Source: Pleurocapsales cyanobacterium LEGE 10410 (GTDB lineage Bacteria; Cyanobacteriota; Cyanobacteriia; Cyanobacteriales; Xenococcaceae). Taken from it: a DNA stretch of 43,496 nucleotides. The notes below the pieces were generated by a model. The model made no database searches and was not told the origin of the DNA. It worked only from the letters and a program-made list of their open reading frames with translations. The DNA is taken from contig JADEXJ010000038.1 in NCBI GenBank assembly GCA_015207195.1, positions 1-43,496 on the forward strand, given 5' to 3'. Below, one piece after another: positions 6,899-43,237 of the stretch. The stretch's first letter is position 1, and every line of letters starts with the position of its first letter. The translations under genes and the position numbers were made by a program.

Positions 6899-7542
6899 GG
6901 TAATTGTTCGAGCATTTCCTTAAATAACTTTTCGTATTCGGAAGCTGATTCTGATGCAGGTCTTCCAGATATGTCCCATACTGTAGCCGACTGTCCCGAA
7001 GTGTCAGCGATCGCCTGTTTTTGATGAATGACAGTATTCAATAAAATCGCACCTGGATTTTTACTCAGTAGCACGATCGCCTCATCTTTTAACTTCGTTC
7101 CTTTCACCGCACGAGAGAGAAACATTACCGCTTTGGGTAAACCACCTCTGACCGATTGAGCCTGTTTAACGAGTCTCATAGCATCTGACGCAGAACGCAG
7201 GTCTACCCCCGTCGGCTGTACGGGAATAAAGGCTAAATCCGACCGAAATAAAATTGCCCTGGTAGCTTCGGATAAACTAGCGGGACCGTCCACAATCACA
7301 TAATCGTAATCTGCTGCTAAATCTGGTACTTGTTCGAGTAGATCGTCGGGAGAACCAATCACTTTACAGGGAATTTCAACATCTTCCATCCCTTCAACCC
7401 ATAGGGAACTCGACCGTTGACTGTCGGCATCAATTAATAATGTCTTTTGTTTCTTCTTGGCGATTAGCCAGTAAGCTAAATGAACGGAAGTAGTGGATTT
7501 AGATACTCCGCCTTTCTGGTTGACTAACGAGATGACTGTCAT
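6895..7542 (-). CDS. parA: ParA-family partition ATPase
   Basis: The 215-residue protein is a short, HTH-less ParA of the MinD/ParA superfamily. The deviant Walker A motif KGGVSKST (10-17) carries the signature lysine, LLIDADSQRSSS (about 35-46) is the A' region, and YVIVDGP (about 79-85) is the Walker B strand. Such ATPases move plasmid copies over the nucleoid together with a centromere-binding partner, here the overlapping RHH gene. This pair is the best evidence that the window is part of a plasmid. Confidence 0.93.
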   Translation of the reverse strand: MTVISLVNQKGGVSKSTTSVHLAYWLIAKKKQKTLLIDADSQRSSSLWVEGMEDVEIPCKVIGSPDDLLEQVPDLAADYDYVIVDGPASLSEATRAILFRSDLAFIPVQPTGVDLRSASDAMRLVKQAQSVRGGLPKAVMFLSRAVKGTKLKDEAIVLLSKNPGAILLNTVIHQKQAIADTSGQSATVWDISGRPASESASEYEKLFKEMLEQLP

Positions 7543-13285: not shown

Positions 13286-13711
13286 TTAGCCGACGGTTAA
13301 ATGCTCATGTACCAAACGCCATTTATCGGTAAGACGCTTCCAGATATGAGTACCATATTGTCTAACTTCTACTTCTTGTCCATCTTTGGTTTTCCCACCT
13401 CCTACCCAAGAAAAGGTAGTAACCGCTAAATCACCATCAATCGAGATTTCTAAGTTATCCTCTAACTGAATTTCCCAGTAGCTAAAGTTCTCCATCACAG
13501 GAATCCAAGTATCGAGATATTCCTGAAGGCTGTGCAGCACGACAACGCCATTATCGAAATTATCGAAGACAAGGATTTTGTTCTCACTGGCAAAGATATT
13601 TTCCAAACCTCTTCCTGTAAAGGGTTTGTCTTTTGGACTCCAGATAGCTCTCCATTGTTCTGTTAACTCAAAAATTTTGGCTTCGTCTGTGGTTTGTAAG
13701 GATTGGATCAT
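13286..13711 (-). CDS. SnoaL/DUF4440-like NTF2-fold protein, first gene of the operon
   Basis: The 141-residue product fits the NTF2-like fold: an N-terminal helix with LTEQWRAIWSP, then strands ending in GTHIWKRLTDKWRLVHEHLTV, the typical DUF4440/SnoaL close with Trp-Arg-hydrophobic-His. Its ATG lies 23 bases from a TTACG-N3-CGTAA palindrome that matches one by the divergent TetR gene. It therefore probably leads the repressor-controlled operon. The catalytic role is unknown. Confidence 0.78.
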   Translation of the reverse strand: MIQSLQTTDEAKIFELTEQWRAIWSPKDKPFTGRGLENIFASENKILVFDNFDNGVVVLHSLQEYLDTWIPVMENFSYWEIQLEDNLEISIDGDLAVTTFSWVGGGKTKDGQEVEVRQYGTHIWKRLTDKWRLVHEHLTVG

Positions 13712-13733
13712 TATGTTTTATGTTAGTTATACG

Positions 13734-13746
13734 TTACGTAGCGTAA
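13734..13746. promoter_or_regulatory. Probable TetR operator O1
   Basis: TTACG-TAG-CGTAA is a palindrome with five-base arms and a three-base spacer, 23 bases upstream of the first operon gene. The same arms and spacer length recur at 13851, as expected for sites of one dimeric repressor. Confidence 0.7.
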
Positions 13747-13850
13747 AATAAGAAAACAAAAAAAAGTTTCGTCAGCATACCTGCTCTTGCTTGACTTTTA
13801 ACTTTCGCTAGTCAAGAAACAGAAACCAGATTATAATCTGCGTATTAACG

Positions 13851-13863
13851 TTACGCCACGTAA
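13851..13863. promoter_or_regulatory. Probable TetR operator O2
   Basis: TTACG-CCA-CGTAA has the same arms as O1 and lies 25 bases upstream of the tetR-like ATG. This suggests autoregulation together with control of the divergent operon. Confidence 0.7.
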
Positions 13864-13888
13864 TTAATATAGCGAAAACCAAACAAAT

Positions 13889-14518
13889 ATGTCAACCTCT
13901 AAAACGAAAAAGTCTAAAACCGTTGCCAAATCTGGACGTGGCAGACCGCGATCGCCTGAAACCAGAGCAAAAATACTCAAAGCTGCTTATGAAATGTTGA
14001 ATGAAGTGGGGTTTATGGATCTAACTATCGAAGGAGTAGCAGTAAGAGCAGAAGTGGGCAAACCAACGATTTATCGACGTTGGAAAACTAAAGCAGCACT
14101 AGCAATGGATGCTTTTTTAGACGCTGTAAACCCAGAACTGGCATTTCCCGATACAGGGGAGGCATCTGAGGATTTCAGAGAGCAAATGCAAAAAATAGTA
14201 AGACTAATGAATAGTCCTAGAGGAGATGTGCTAGCTAGTGTTATTGGCTGTGGACAGGCAGATGAAGAACTAATAGCAGCTTTTAGGGAAAATTGGCTGA
14301 CTCCCAGAAGAGAAGATGCAAAAAGAGTATTTCAACGAGGAGTAGATCGAGGTGAATTAAAAGAAGGTATAGATGCAGAAATTGCGATCGATGCTTTATA
14401 TAGTCCGCTTTTCTACCGCTTGCTACTTAAGCATCAACCCTTAACCAAGGACTTTGTAGATCGATTAGTTGATGTAGTAATGAATGGGCTTATCGTAAAT
14501 AGTGAGCTAAATAACTGA
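13889..14518 (+). CDS. TetR/AcrR-family transcriptional repressor
   Basis: The 209-residue product has a basic Lys/Arg-rich leader, then a TetR helix-turn-helix (about 25-70). SPETRAKILKAA starts helix 1 and VGKPTIYRRWKTKAAL is the recognition-helix signature. The C-terminal ligand domain resembles the TetR_C_11-like type. It is divergent from the six-gene carbonyl/quinone operon, with two matching palindromes between them. It probably represses both directions until a small hydrophobic ligand binds. The ligand is unknown. Confidence 0.93.
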   Translation: MSTSKTKKSKTVAKSGRGRPRSPETRAKILKAAYEMLNEVGFMDLTIEGVAVRAEVGKPTIYRRWKTKAALAMDAFLDAVNPELAFPDTGEASEDFREQMQKIVRLMNSPRGDVLASVIGCGQADEELIAAFRENWLTPRREDAKRVFQRGVDRGELKEGIDAEIAIDALYSPLFYRLLLKHQPLTKDFVDRLVDVVMNGLIVNSELNN

Positions 14519-16603: not shown

Positions 16604-17557
16604 ATGAAGAGGGTAAGTAAATTAATTATCTATGGACTGGTCATAGTCAGCATCGCGATCGCCATTATCACCACTAGCATCTTTCCTCTTTCTAGTTGGG
16701 CAACGGCTAATAACGGAACGACTCAAACAGAAACTACTTCACCCAAACGCTTAAACATCACCGTCAACGTTACCGAGCCAGACGACCTCAAAGTCAGTGA
16801 AGGGGAACGGATAGAAAAAGGTGAAATCATTGCCGACAGGGAACGAGAAAGAACCAGACTGACAGCCCAACAGAAACAGCTTCAGCTATCACTCGACCGA
16901 CTAAAAGCAGCTTCCATTACTCCACCCGCAGCACCTCAAGCAGTACCGCCTACAATGGCATTACCGCCCATCAGCTATCTAGAACAAGAAGCAGCAGTTG
17001 AGAAAACCAAAAGTGCGATCGCTTCCATTGAATCGGAACTAGAACTCAAACAACAAGAAATAAGCTATCTCAAAGGAGTCAAAAACCTCGACCCAATTAT
17101 CCTCGAACACGAACAAGCAAAGTTAAAACAGTTAAAACTGAGTCACACCACAGCAGTTAGAGAGTATCAGCTAGCAATGGGTAAGATGCAGACGGCAAAA
17201 AGCGATCGCTCTTACAAAGAGTACCAAGCCTCAATTAATACAGCCCGACGGGTAGAGGAACAAAATCAAGCAAGGCTCAACTATCAACGGCAATTAGCAG
17301 AATACGAACAAAGAGTGACCGATAGAGAATTTCAGGTTACACAGCTACAGGAGAAACTAAATAATGTGGACAATGCGATCGCAACTTTGGCAGTTATTAA
17401 ATCTCCTTACAGTGGCACTGTTCGCCGTATTAAGTGGCTCGGTCAATCCGCAGATGGCACACTCACAGCCCAAGTTACCCTCATGGTCGAATCAGATCGA
17501 GAAGCCGAACGAATCAGACGCAGAGAACAAAGAAATTCCCTGTCTCAACAGCAGTAA
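16604..17557 (+). CDS. HlyD/membrane-fusion-like coiled-coil protein
   Basis: The 317-residue product has an N-terminal membrane anchor (about 7-32), then a split lipoyl-like motif. The first half, VSEGERIEKGEIIAD (about 64-78), and the second, VIKSPYSGTVRRIKW (about 263-277), flank a long coiled coil (about 80-255) interrupted by a Pro-rich segment. This is the architecture of periplasmic adaptor proteins. It is shorter than full HlyD and lacks a clear beta-barrel domain. Its last 194 bases overlap the next gene in another frame, strongly suggesting co-translation with that TolC-like partner. Confidence 0.8.
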   Translation: MKRVSKLIIYGLVIVSIAIAIITTSIFPLSSWATANNGTTQTETTSPKRLNITVNVTEPDDLKVSEGERIEKGEIIADRERERTRLTAQQKQLQLSLDRLKAASITPPAAPQAVPPTMALPPISYLEQEAAVEKTKSAIASIESELELKQQEISYLKGVKNLDPIILEHEQAKLKQLKLSHTTAVREYQLAMGKMQTAKSDRSYKEYQASINTARRVEEQNQARLNYQRQLAEYEQRVTDREFQVTQLQEKLNNVDNAIATLAVIKSPYSGTVRRIKWLGQSADGTLTAQVTLMVESDREAERIRRREQRNSLSQQQ

Positions 17558-18128
17558 ACTTTGTGTAGGGCAACTTACAGAACGAGCGATCGCCAACTCA
17601 TTTAAACTCCAGCAGTCTGAATCTAGAATTGCTTTAATCGAACAGAGACTAGAAGTTACGGAAGATCGTATCGATTACACATCAAAGAAGAAGTGGACTA
17701 ACTATATCTCTACTAATCCTGTAGACATCATTCAAAACCTATTTGGTGGTGGTGGCATACAGAGGGATAATATTGCGATCGCCAATTTGGAAATTAGAAC
17801 TACAGACCTACTGGCAGCAAAAGCGGAATTAGAAAGGCAGCAGGAAGAAGAGAAGCTAAAAATTGAAGATGAAGTGCTGAACTTACTCTTAGATTATGAA
17901 GCTGCTAACCGCAAACTCGAACTACTGACATCGAACCTGGAAACTCTCGAACAGCAGAGGGAAGTAATGAGAATTGCTTATAAGTACGGTCAGGGTAGTA
18001 CCTCTCAGATATTGGGCATGGAGGATAGGCGCGATCGCATTATCGAGCAGATTGTTAAGGTTGAGATTGAGCAGGATGAGGCGGTAAGAGAAATCGAGCA
18101 ACTAATTGGTGATAAAAAAAAGCAGTAA
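17364..18128 (+). CDS. Truncated TolC-like periplasmic/outer-membrane coiled-coil protein
   Basis: The 254-residue product has a signal peptide (about 4-35) encoded inside the 3' end of the HlyD-like gene in another frame. Its ATG follows AGGAGA by nine bases, which supports this start. The mature part opens with LTERAIANS (about 72-80), as in TolC-type proteins, and is mostly helical. LLLDYEAANRKLELL and YKYGQGSTSQIL match the TolC helix with the usual Gly-x-x-S break. Only one of the two usual TolC repeats is present, so it is a half-size relative or a partner for another TolC. Confidence 0.75.
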   Translation: MWTMRSQLWQLLNLLTVALFAVLSGSVNPQMAHSQPKLPSWSNQIEKPNESDAENKEIPCLNSSKLCVGQLTERAIANSFKLQQSESRIALIEQRLEVTEDRIDYTSKKKWTNYISTNPVDIIQNLFGGGGIQRDNIAIANLEIRTTDLLAAKAELERQQEEEKLKIEDEVLNLLLDYEAANRKLELLTSNLETLEQQREVMRIAYKYGQGSTSQILGMEDRRDRIIEQIVKVEIEQDEAVREIEQLIGDKKKQ

Positions 18129-40756: not shown

Positions 40757-41101
40757 ATGAAAATCCCCGACTGCGATCGCTGTACTCTCTACGCTCATAA
40801 TCCCCACTTAGTTTGTGCCGTTCATCCTTCAGGAGTAGAGACTGACAAATGCTTGGACTTCAGACCAGATCCTAATGCACAAATAGAAGAACAATGGAGT
40901 CCTCAAGGTTATAGCTGGTATAGTGATGAACTAATTGCAGATAGACCTTCTCGTTATACTCCCTCAGAACAACTAGAAATCCTAGATACTCATCCCCTGT
41001 TCACTGGTGTTTGTCCTCAATGCAGACATGAGTTTAATCGAGATGAGAGAATAGTTCACTATGATTGTCCCGATTGCGGTTGGGTAGATGATTCGGTGTA
41101 A
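40757..41101 (+). CDS. Hypothetical protein with zinc-ribbon motifs
   Basis: The 114-residue product opens with CDRCTLYAHNPHLVCAVHP (Cys and His spaced for a metal site, about 6-24) and ends with CPQCRHEF (about 87-94) and CPDCGW (about 105-110), a classical zinc ribbon. The middle is Trp/Tyr-rich. It lies 21 bases after arfB and may be in its operon. Such two-ended zinc proteins are common in cyanobacteria; function unknown. Confidence 0.7.
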   Translation: MKIPDCDRCTLYAHNPHLVCAVHPSGVETDKCLDFRPDPNAQIEEQWSPQGYSWYSDELIADRPSRYTPSEQLEILDTHPLFTGVCPQCRHEFNRDERIVHYDCPDCGWVDDSV

Positions 41102-41169
41102 CGATCGCCTATTCCTTTAGTTGTCGCTTCGCGGTTTTATTGCTTTCCCCCTCCGCCCCTCTGGGAAAC

Positions 41170-41205
41170 CCGATCCACCTGCCTTTGGTCGTCCACCTGG
41201 ATCGG
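41170..41205 (+). other. Hairpin in the 5' half of the candidate RNA
   Basis: CCGATCCA (41170-41177) pairs exactly with TGGATCGG (41198-41205) around a 20-base loop. Confidence 0.5.
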
Positions 41206-41274
41206 CTGCGATATACGTCACACAGCATTCCCATTATGGCAACGGGCTAAATAATGAGCTTCGCAGTTTGTTAT

Positions 41275-41289
41275 CTGGGGACACCCCAG
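41275..41289 (+). other. Tight hairpin before the adenine-free tract
   Basis: CTGGGG-ACA-CCCCAG is a perfect six-base stem with a three-base loop; no T-run follows, so it is structural rather than a terminator. Confidence 0.55.
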
Positions 41290-41720
41290 ACCCCATATGA
41301 TGCGTCAAGCGTCTAGAAAATTGATCTGCGAGAAAACAAATACCCCGAAGCCGCTATGACACTCTTACGCCCGTGCCACCCCAAAACTGTTGTTTTTCCT
41401 TTCGGGGGTCTTTTCTCGTGCGTTTTTCTTTTTCTGTCCGTTCTCGTTCTTCTGTTTCTCGCTTGTCCGTTCCTTTCCGTCGTGTGGTCGGTTTGGCTCT
41501 CTCTCGTGGTTGCTGTTCCTGGCTGCTGCGTTCGTCTTCTCGTTCGTTCTCTGGTTCGGTTGTCTGGTGCGGTTTTGCTTCTCGTTCTCGTGCTGCTGCT
41601 TTTGCCTTCGTTGTCTCGCGTTTGGTCGGTTGTGTGGTGTGGGTGCGTCCTGGCTGGTGTTCTGTCTCTGGCTTTGTCTGGTTCGTCTCCGTGCCTGTCG
41701 TGCGCTGAGTCGTTCTTGTT

Positions 41721-41742
41721 GGGGGTTTGTCCCCCTTTTTTT
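41721..41742 (+). terminator. Intrinsic terminator ending the adenine-free tract
   Basis: GGGGG (41721-41725), loop TTTGT, CCCCC (41731-41735), then seven T. This is a textbook Rho-independent terminator for plus-strand transcription. Confidence 0.85.
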
Positions 41743-41883: not shown

Positions 41884-42340
41884 AGACGGAAATTTAACCC
41901 TAGATTAAAGCGATCGCGAGCCATATATTATTTTAAATATCTACTGCATAAGCTCATTCTACGAGATCTCTTGAATATGCCTTAGAGGGATACCTGAATG
42001 TTGCGATCGCCCGAACGCTACAGCTACATCTCGTTAAACTTTCTAATGCCTTACACTCAGTTCGTCTCGCTAATCGCTCGGCTTATTTCGGCGCGCATCC
42101 AAGTGCGGAAATTATAGCACAGGCAGTCGCTCACGGTTCGTTGGGGCTATTTATTATCTCTTGTTAGTCGTAGCCCCTTTTGTTTATTTGGGTCGCTCGT
42201 AAACATCGCTCCCATCGTTCGCTTGATGCCTATGCACTCAGGTTCGGGGTGTGTCTGCGCGCCTAGAATGTCTGTTTCGTCTCGCTTCGCTCGGTTTTTT
42301 TATATGTGTGCAATGTGAATGTGGTGGTGGTGCGGTGTGA
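41884..42340. other. Gene-free stretch upstream of the tRNA
   Basis: No coding frame is convincing. The part next to the tRNA (41884-42000) has ordinary composition and should contain its promoter. The rest has HIP1 sites, repeats of TCGCTCG type, and one plus-strand terminator-like hairpin (42143-42180). Confidence 0.5.
42143..42180 (+). terminator. Terminator-like hairpin
   Basis: GGGGCTA (42143-42149) pairs exactly with TAGCCCC (42171-42177), followed by TTTTGTTT. A 21-base loop weakens it. No gene precedes it on this strand, suggesting an unannotated transcript. Confidence 0.55.
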
Positions 42341-42606
42341 GTGTGTTGTCTCTCCTGCTTCGCCCTTCCCGTCTGGTTTTTGGGTTGGGCTTTGGTTTGT
42401 CGGCGGGGGCGTGGGGTTTGCCCCTTCTCGGTGGCTTGCCCCTGCTGTTTTTCCCTTGCCTGCTGCTCGTTGGGTTGCGCCCCCTGGCGGGCGGTGTTCC
42501 CTCGGTTGCTCTGTGGGGCTTTCGTGTTCCTCGCTTGTTCGGCTGCTGGTCGCGCCAGGTGTCGTCCTCTCGCCTTTTCTCGCGGTCTGTTTCTTTCCCT
42601 TTGTCT
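42341..42606 (+). other. Second adenine-free tract
   Basis: From 42341 to 42556 no A occurs in 216 bases; one A (42557) then none to 42606. It is G/C-rich with GGGG-TTTG-CCCC at 42413-42424. The three overlapping plus-strand frames here are an effect of missing A. A further 65-base tract without A lies at 42644-42708. Transcription strand is not shown by a terminator here. Confidence 0.8.
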
Positions 42607-42796: not shown

Positions 42797-43237
42797 TCAA
42801 ACAACAGCGATCGCTTTAGTCTTGTTTATGTAATCTGATAATTTATCAAAGCCTAACCATGTTAAAACCCCGTAGGCGTGTTTACAACAGGCTTTCTTGC
42901 CACCAAATATCATTATCTGATTTTGGTAATCGTGACACTCACAATCAAAACCATCCTCGTAAACAAAAACACTGTAAGCTGTACTCTTTCTAGGATTGAT
43001 AACTCTAAAATGTTCTCGATTAACTTGAGCAACACACAGCGATCGCGATTGCTCGATCCGCCAATCTACAAAATGCTGCTTGAATGCTTTCTTTGAAATA
43101 AATGTCGGTCTTTGTCCTTTGATTTGGACGAAGCAAACCTTGTACCAAACCTCAAACCTAACGATCGCCCAATGTTTTACATTTAGTATTCTTGCTGCTG
43201 CTGCTCTTGAATAAACGAAGTTATTTGAATTAATCAT
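42797..43237 (-). CDS. SWIM zinc-finger protein
   Basis: The 146-residue product ends with a SWIM motif: CEC (about 103-105) followed 17 residues later by CKH in GKKACCKHAYGVL (about 119-131), fitting CxC-x(n)-CxH. SWIM fingers bind DNA or proteins in recombination, defence and plasmid proteins. The N-terminal part has an RAAAARILNV helix like a small HTH and basic strands. The gene is divergent from the truncated gene at the right edge and shares a control region with palindromes. Confidence 0.75.
   Translation of the reverse strand: MINSNNFVYSRAAAARILNVKHWAIVRFEVWYKVCFVQIKGQRPTFISKKAFKQHFVDWRIEQSRSLCVAQVNREHFRVINPRKSTAYSVFVYEDGFDCECHDYQNQIMIFGGKKACCKHAYGVLTWLGFDKLSDYINKTKAIAVV

Follow-up and report, generated by a model that had tools for sequence, protein, structure and literature searches.

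Our analysis reveals that positions 41387 to 41742 of the window (the whole stretch analysed, 43,496 nucleotides of contig JADEXJ010000038.1 from Pleurocapsales cyanobacterium LEGE 10410) are a transcription-unit-like module that carries a small protein gene and that, apart from the stop codon, is free of adenine in coding and non-coding sequence alike. This gene, B, is one of a group of base-purged genes that cyanobacterial plasmids and related contigs carry. In these genes, the forbidden base is kept mainly in codons that need it: stop codons, the codons of predicted iron-binding His residues and of an invariant Asp, and that of the Gln in a clamp-like C-terminal motif. In the open-access literature, we found no description of natural genes that lack a whole base. 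We infer, with a probability of about 0.4, that these are plasmid establishment or anti-defence genes written in three-letter alphabets, C-free beside A-free, as camouflage that would make their messages invisible to base-specific host RNases such as Csx1/Csm6.

A base-run scan confirmed the preliminary description of the tract, as no A occurs in the 321 nt from 41387 to 41707 and the only A from there to 41742 is at 41708, followed by an A-free run of 34 nt (41709-41742). A makes up 29.7% of the window, and a first-order Markov model of the window predicts about 7e-42 A-free runs of at least 321 nt. The longest A-free runs in the window are 321, 216 (42341-42556), 65, 49, 34, and 33 nt, and a second A-poor tract (42320-42606, + strand; 2 A in 287 nt) lies 0.6 kb downstream of the first. 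The A-free 3′ stretch (41709-41742, +), identified by base scan and hairpin, contains an intrinsic terminator at 41721-41742, consisting of a GC hairpin (GGGGG-TTTGT-CCCCC, stem 41721-41735) followed by T7; a terminator is found in the same place in seven other units of this kind. The A-free 5′ stretch (41387-41417, +) contains a Shine-Dalgarno-like GGGGGT (41404-41409), which would pair with CCUCC through one G-U pair, and its arrangement and boundary are shared by seven other loci. Eight bases after GGGGGT, a GTG at 41418 starts gene B (41418-41708, +), which encodes a 96-aa protein and has its only A in the TGA stop codon. An earlier claim that the RNA contains no stop codon in any frame missed that the A at 41708 is the last base of this in-frame TGA.

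Multiple lines of evidence indicate that the B frame is protein-coding. Amino acid identity in this frame is 92% with the G023 copy, 72% with G007, and 66% with both G018 and G054, and dN/dS is 0.24-0.39 in three pairs that include the window gene. On a T/C/G alphabet, dN/dS for ten pairs drawn from families B, C, and S (C and S are described below) was 0.14-0.39 in the called frame, compared with 0.81-5.17 in shifted frames (20 tests, two below 1), so that purifying selection is confined to the conserved frame. In these ten pairs, synonymous differences reach about half of the synonymous sites, and 717 of 786 differences are among T, C, and G only. The window gene has no A at 74 four-fold sites, and overlaid translations revealed A's at in-frame stop codons in the tract and its relatives. 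The main reading offered earlier, a non-coding A-free RNA, could draw on the predicted folding of the tract, which surpassed that of all 100 shuffles (z -2.61). However, the substitutions are codon-phased with frame-specific purifying selection, A's are retained at in-frame stops, and no Rfam match covers the tract, which leaves this reading almost no chance. A plus-strand transcript of U, G, and C that ends at the terminator remains the natural interpretation, but as an mRNA with a conserved, selected frame. The preliminary description had named, as evidence against its reading, homologues that have normal A content and encode a conserved protein; the homologues do encode one, but are also A-poor. 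The predicted fold of B (pLDDT 74) gave no convincing structural match.

The set comprises A-free genes B, C (a second small protein, which precedes B), and S (a SLOG/DprA-like protein), together with a 2OG-oxygenase-like gene that lacks cytosine. B was found in 14 and S in 27 of 388 class genomes; in L020, L091, L110, and L147, S carries a fused B-like domain, D. The second A-poor tract of the window (42320-42606) is similar to a stretch that precedes the promoter of a D-SLOG fusion gene (G023; L020), a gene that the window lacks. Cyanobacterial plasmids with A-free families include pSYSX (Synechocystis PCC 6803), which has S, and pAQ5 (PCC 7002), which has C+B. A tblastn search of plasmids with the window B protein gave no match, which is a false negative for the B family, since pAQ5 holds a B gene that we found by base scan. 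Excluding L058, L065, L066, L068, L069, and L078, the A content of S matches is 0-8% in the purged group, 15% in L062, and 29-36% in seven distant homologues. A occupies 0.3-5% of four-fold sites in the purged sets (for B, five genes other than that of the window) versus 40% in the seven distant S homologues. The purged islands are embedded in ordinary DNA. B and S lie in opposite orientation in L097, L099, and L101 and in the same orientation in L020, L091, L092/L093, L094/L095, L096, and L119; since both relative orientations occur, depletion follows the sense strand and a fixed DNA-strand effect is ruled out. We found no match to S in phage records; 17 IMG/VR contigs encode relatives with 0-30% A, and no viral-contig relative was returned for A3 and A4.

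In L147, an A-poor D-SLOG fusion (275-1259) is immediately followed by a second SLOG gene with 19% A and a similar promoter (1375-1827), forming a natural comparison pair. An A-poor SLOG gene also occurs on a contig labelled Acidobacteria bacterium 5-1 (L117 6073-6861), and a divergent SLOG/oxygenase-like pair of ordinary composition lies on a chromosome (L060 and L137; G210:C1 1901488-1902436).

The gene directly upstream of S is depleted of a different base, with 4 C in 465 nt on pSYSX and 3 C in 480 nt on pSTA7437.03 (Stanieria PCC 7437). On both plasmids, this C-free gene and A-free S are on one strand, less than 0.4 kb apart; pSYSX bears the pair twice, with no further tract above threshold in the 100 kb scanned. 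Because same-strand neighbours lack different bases, a regional or strand-wide mutation bias cannot make both and is excluded. The C-free gene apparently encodes a 2OG-Fe(II) oxygenase, since H93, D95, and H136, invariant in four aligned rows, match the HxD...H iron-binding triad of AlkB-like enzymes; its Pfam matches are below cut-off. In the 465-nt G308 copy, the only two C's are in the CAT codons of predicted iron-binding residues H93 and H136. The C content of this gene is 0.4% in G308, 0.6-0.9% in Stanieria and pSYSX, 1.7% in G014, 7% in L128-L130, and 0.6 and 4.3% in two IMG/VR copies, compared with 11-29% in eight distant matches. Low C in the oxygenase-like gene accompanies low A in S in seven replicons (pSYSX, Stanieria, G014, G308, G420, G380, and G274); L143 is an exception, where a C-poor zone (19 C in 659 nt) lies beside an S gene with 18% A. 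In L029, a C-poor stretch with an open frame (13597-13919, +; 4.6% C) lies between the C-free gene and an A-poor D gene.

The side-by-side loss of two bases also bears on the origin that had been proposed for the tract, in which targeted mutagenesis, for example by a reverse transcriptase like that of diversity-generating retroelements (DGRs), strips A from a copied region. The purged genes share adenine-specific sequence change with DGRs and have sharp boundaries near gene ends, and pAQ5 carries a reverse transcriptase gene (L126 19345-20457) about 1.4 kb downstream of A-free C+B, after a DNA/RNA endonuclease gene. However, the same-strand partner gene loses C instead, whole units are affected, and selection has preserved essential codons and protein sequence. 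The genome of the window has ten RVT_1 matches, none of them on its contig (C229). With neither a linked reverse transcriptase there nor adenine-only change, the proposal is unsupported, and we disfavour mutagenic copying as very improbable.

The structure prediction of S is confident (pLDDT 89.7). Purged proteins at the extreme are built almost wholly from about eleven amino acids, and S shows that evolved proteins with a strongly reduced amino acid alphabet can still fold confidently in prediction. D51 is invariant in 37 of 37 aligned rows, and in the L150 match its codon is the only one with A. A C-terminus resembling QLxLF, the consensus for sliding-clamp binding (PMC4549789), is present in 30 of 42 S proteins of the A-poor group (which includes five with 11-19% A) and in four of eight ordinary S proteins, a tally that leaves out L058, L062, L065, L066, L068, L069, and the near-duplicates L144 and L155. 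The Q codon of this motif is often among the few that bear A. Proteins of the DprA type are single-stranded DNA binders, and in shosTA, as in other systems, the antitoxin is a DprA homologue (PMC9122126). The Pfam match of S to DprA is weak (E 0.077), and Foldseek returned no match at E <= 0.001. The best fold matches are ShosA (PDB 8zva; TM 0.53, E 2.4e-3), followed by DprA proteins (TM 0.45-0.47, with HpDprA 5mll at 0.47), with E ranging from 2e-3 to 0.06. The S protein, which is absent from the window, thus has a predicted Rossmann-like fold that matches DprA, in line with the SLOG/DprA superfamily; it differs from these proteins in its use of few amino acids and its clamp-like tail.

A further idea is self-immunity, in which the encoded proteins would act against A or C in RNA or in single-stranded DNA and would spare their own genes, which are devoid of that base. 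Both the DprA/SLOG-like fold of S and the resemblance of the C-free gene to 2OG-Fe(II) oxygenases, a class with members such as AlkB that target damaged A and C, are compatible with such an activity. As most neighbouring plasmid genes have ordinary composition and distant S and oxygenase homologues of ordinary composition exist, we consider it improbable.

Purging extends beyond the coding sequences. In eight B/C/D units, the sequence outside the reading frames (28 nt ahead of the first start codon, gaps, and stop codon to T run) contains 7 A in 732 nt, or 6 A in 611 nt without L025, whose first start codon is misplaced (GTT). The coding parts, leaving out stop codons, contain 24 A in 3456 nt. 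Over the same units, the 100 nt upstream contain 129 A in 800 and the 100 nt downstream 286 A in 800. Since non-coding parts are also purged, neither protein nor codon set alone explains the loss of A. The region before the window unit (41100-41386, +) is non-coding, conserved, and ordinary in A content, and probably holds the promoter. When the roughly 300 nt that precede the A-free B, C, or D genes were aligned (the window and L020, L022, L023, L024, L027, L028, and L029), mean column identity was 58%; RNA folding of the window's copy was no better than that of shuffles (z -0.95). Beyond the islands lie genes of ordinary composition that recur near them: a Cys-rich 114-aa protein (40757-41101, +; six loci) and a protein with a SWIM-like Cys/His motif (42797-43237, -; weak Pfam match, E 0.27), with homologues in six other island-bearing loci.

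In the B/C/D units, A disappears roughly 30 nt ahead of the start codon, following the conserved A-containing stretch, and the purged zone of L147 starts just after TATAAT and ends past a GC hairpin. At most S loci (five of seven), the 60 nt preceding the -35 region are also nearly A-free (0-2 A), with 13 A in L039 and 17 A in L147 at the remaining two, and the C-free zone of pSYSX begins upstream of its own promoter. A polypurine stretch of the kind GAGAGAGGGTA..GG occurs at the upstream edge of several base-free islands, upstream of S in L091, L113, and L120 and upstream of the C-free gene in L118 (~7030-7070).

The absence of one base from most of a unit could reflect transcription without ATP (A-free) or CTP (C-free) at times when that nucleotide is scarce or when a chain terminator, such as the ddhCTP of viperins, takes its place. 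However, the A-containing conserved stretches that precede the B/C/D units are probably transcribed, and tRNA charging requires ATP in any case; we regard this explanation, too, as improbable.

In four of the eight plasmid regions viewed (pSYSX, pNOS7524.01, pAQ5, and pANACY.03), S and an ArdA gene are separated by 0.8-1.4 kb, and Rad52, ERF, or DUF1071 genes follow further away. For S. elongatus, Stanieria, and two Microcystis plasmids, the region viewed has no annotated ArdA. On pAQ5, the ArdA-linked S gene has ordinary A, and the A-free C+B pair is elsewhere (17227-17953). ArdA itself and most neighbouring plasmid genes have ordinary composition. Leading regions of plasmids are rich in anti-defence genes (Samuel et al. 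2024, PMC11541004), and the association of S with ArdA and Rad52/ERF-type genes in four of eight regions resembles the anti-defence islands described there. Our comparison with that work is of neighbouring gene content only, and its abstract does not mention base purging.

The plasmid setting could also point to evasion of restriction or modification at the DNA level, with early genes escaping many specificities at once: an A-free strand lacks sites having both A and T, and a C-free strand lacks sites having both C and G, making the two depletions two solutions to one problem. The proximity of ArdA antirestriction genes to S and the reach of purged zones upstream of promoters in several loci fit this idea. 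Palindromes composed only of G and C, the sole kind possible on an A-free strand, seemed supportive, with an observed/expected ratio of 0.66 in 17 A-free genes, until 90 ordinary neighbour genes gave 0.42. Since depletion is stronger in the ordinary neighbours, avoidance of restriction sites is unsupported. Residual A's also do not avoid mixed palindromes (observed/expected 0.91 for 4-mers and 0.98 for 6-mers), and ArdA is not purged. We therefore consider restriction evasion unlikely, though the least unlikely of the alternatives.

We favour evasion of base-specific RNases, in which a host RNase would find no site in the ribosome-loaded core of a message purged of one base. Candidate host enzymes would be the Csx1/Csm6 effectors of type III CRISPR systems or mRNA interferases. 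SyCsx1 of PCC 6803, the strain that carries pSYSX, is activated by cA4 and strictly cytosine-specific, while PfuCsx1 and TonCsm6 are adenosine-specific (PMC9676260). The single-base preferences of these collateral RNases thus match the two purged bases; a link between preference and the base composition of invaders and host mRNAs is raised as speculation in that source. A C-free message would escape a C-cutter such as SyCsx1, an A-free message would escape A-cutters such as PfuCsx1 and TonCsm6, and adjacent C-free and A-free genes may cover hosts with either preference. The conserved boundary about 30 nt before the B/C/D start codon would fit protection of the ribosome-loaded core only. Also consistent with RNase evasion are the extent of the L147 zone, from just after TATAAT to past a GC hairpin, the existence of base-specific RNases (PMC9676260), the near confinement of synonymous change to T, C, and G under frame-specific purifying selection, the purging of non-coding parts, the retention of C at predicted catalytic His codons of the C-free neighbour, and the ArdA and Rad52/ERF-type genes near S.

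Other observations argue against RNase evasion. Carriers show no enrichment of type III CRISPR RAMP genes (4 of 9 tract-bearing genomes versus 28 of 60 overall), a weak test as plasmids move between hosts, and the window's own genome has none; the Csx1_HEPN model, with no match in 60 genomes, was uninformative. A rule acting on messages would not need purged DNA upstream of likely promoters (five of seven S loci and the pSYSX C-free zone), and S genes with 18-19% A lie beside purged genes in L143 and L147. Escape from adenine-dependent RNases, already suggested from the tract alone, is kept as the best functional guess despite the absence of a type III CRISPR association.

A precedent is provided by ACA-less messages, which reportedly escape MazF in single-protein production. 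In both cases, a message without an RNase site would stay translatable, but ACA-less messages are engineered and lack one triplet, whereas the purged genes are natural and lack a whole base. Avoidance of ACA by itself was rejected as the sole cause of purging, as residual A's form ACA 9 times against an expectation of 7.0 and hence show no depletion of it.

The purged genes illustrate the extent to which selection can shape base composition in opposition to the needs of the protein, and they suggest a reason, open to testing, why Csx1/Csm6 RNases prefer particular bases. Base purging may also be a compositional marker of plasmid establishment genes that are annotated as hypothetical or missed. 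RefSeq lists several proteins of the purged families as hypothetical, and A-poor genes such as S can be misannotated: on pNOS7524.01 of Nostoc PCC 7524, the A-poor S gene is overlain by an antisense frame in the RefSeq annotation (L119 8305-8736, -).
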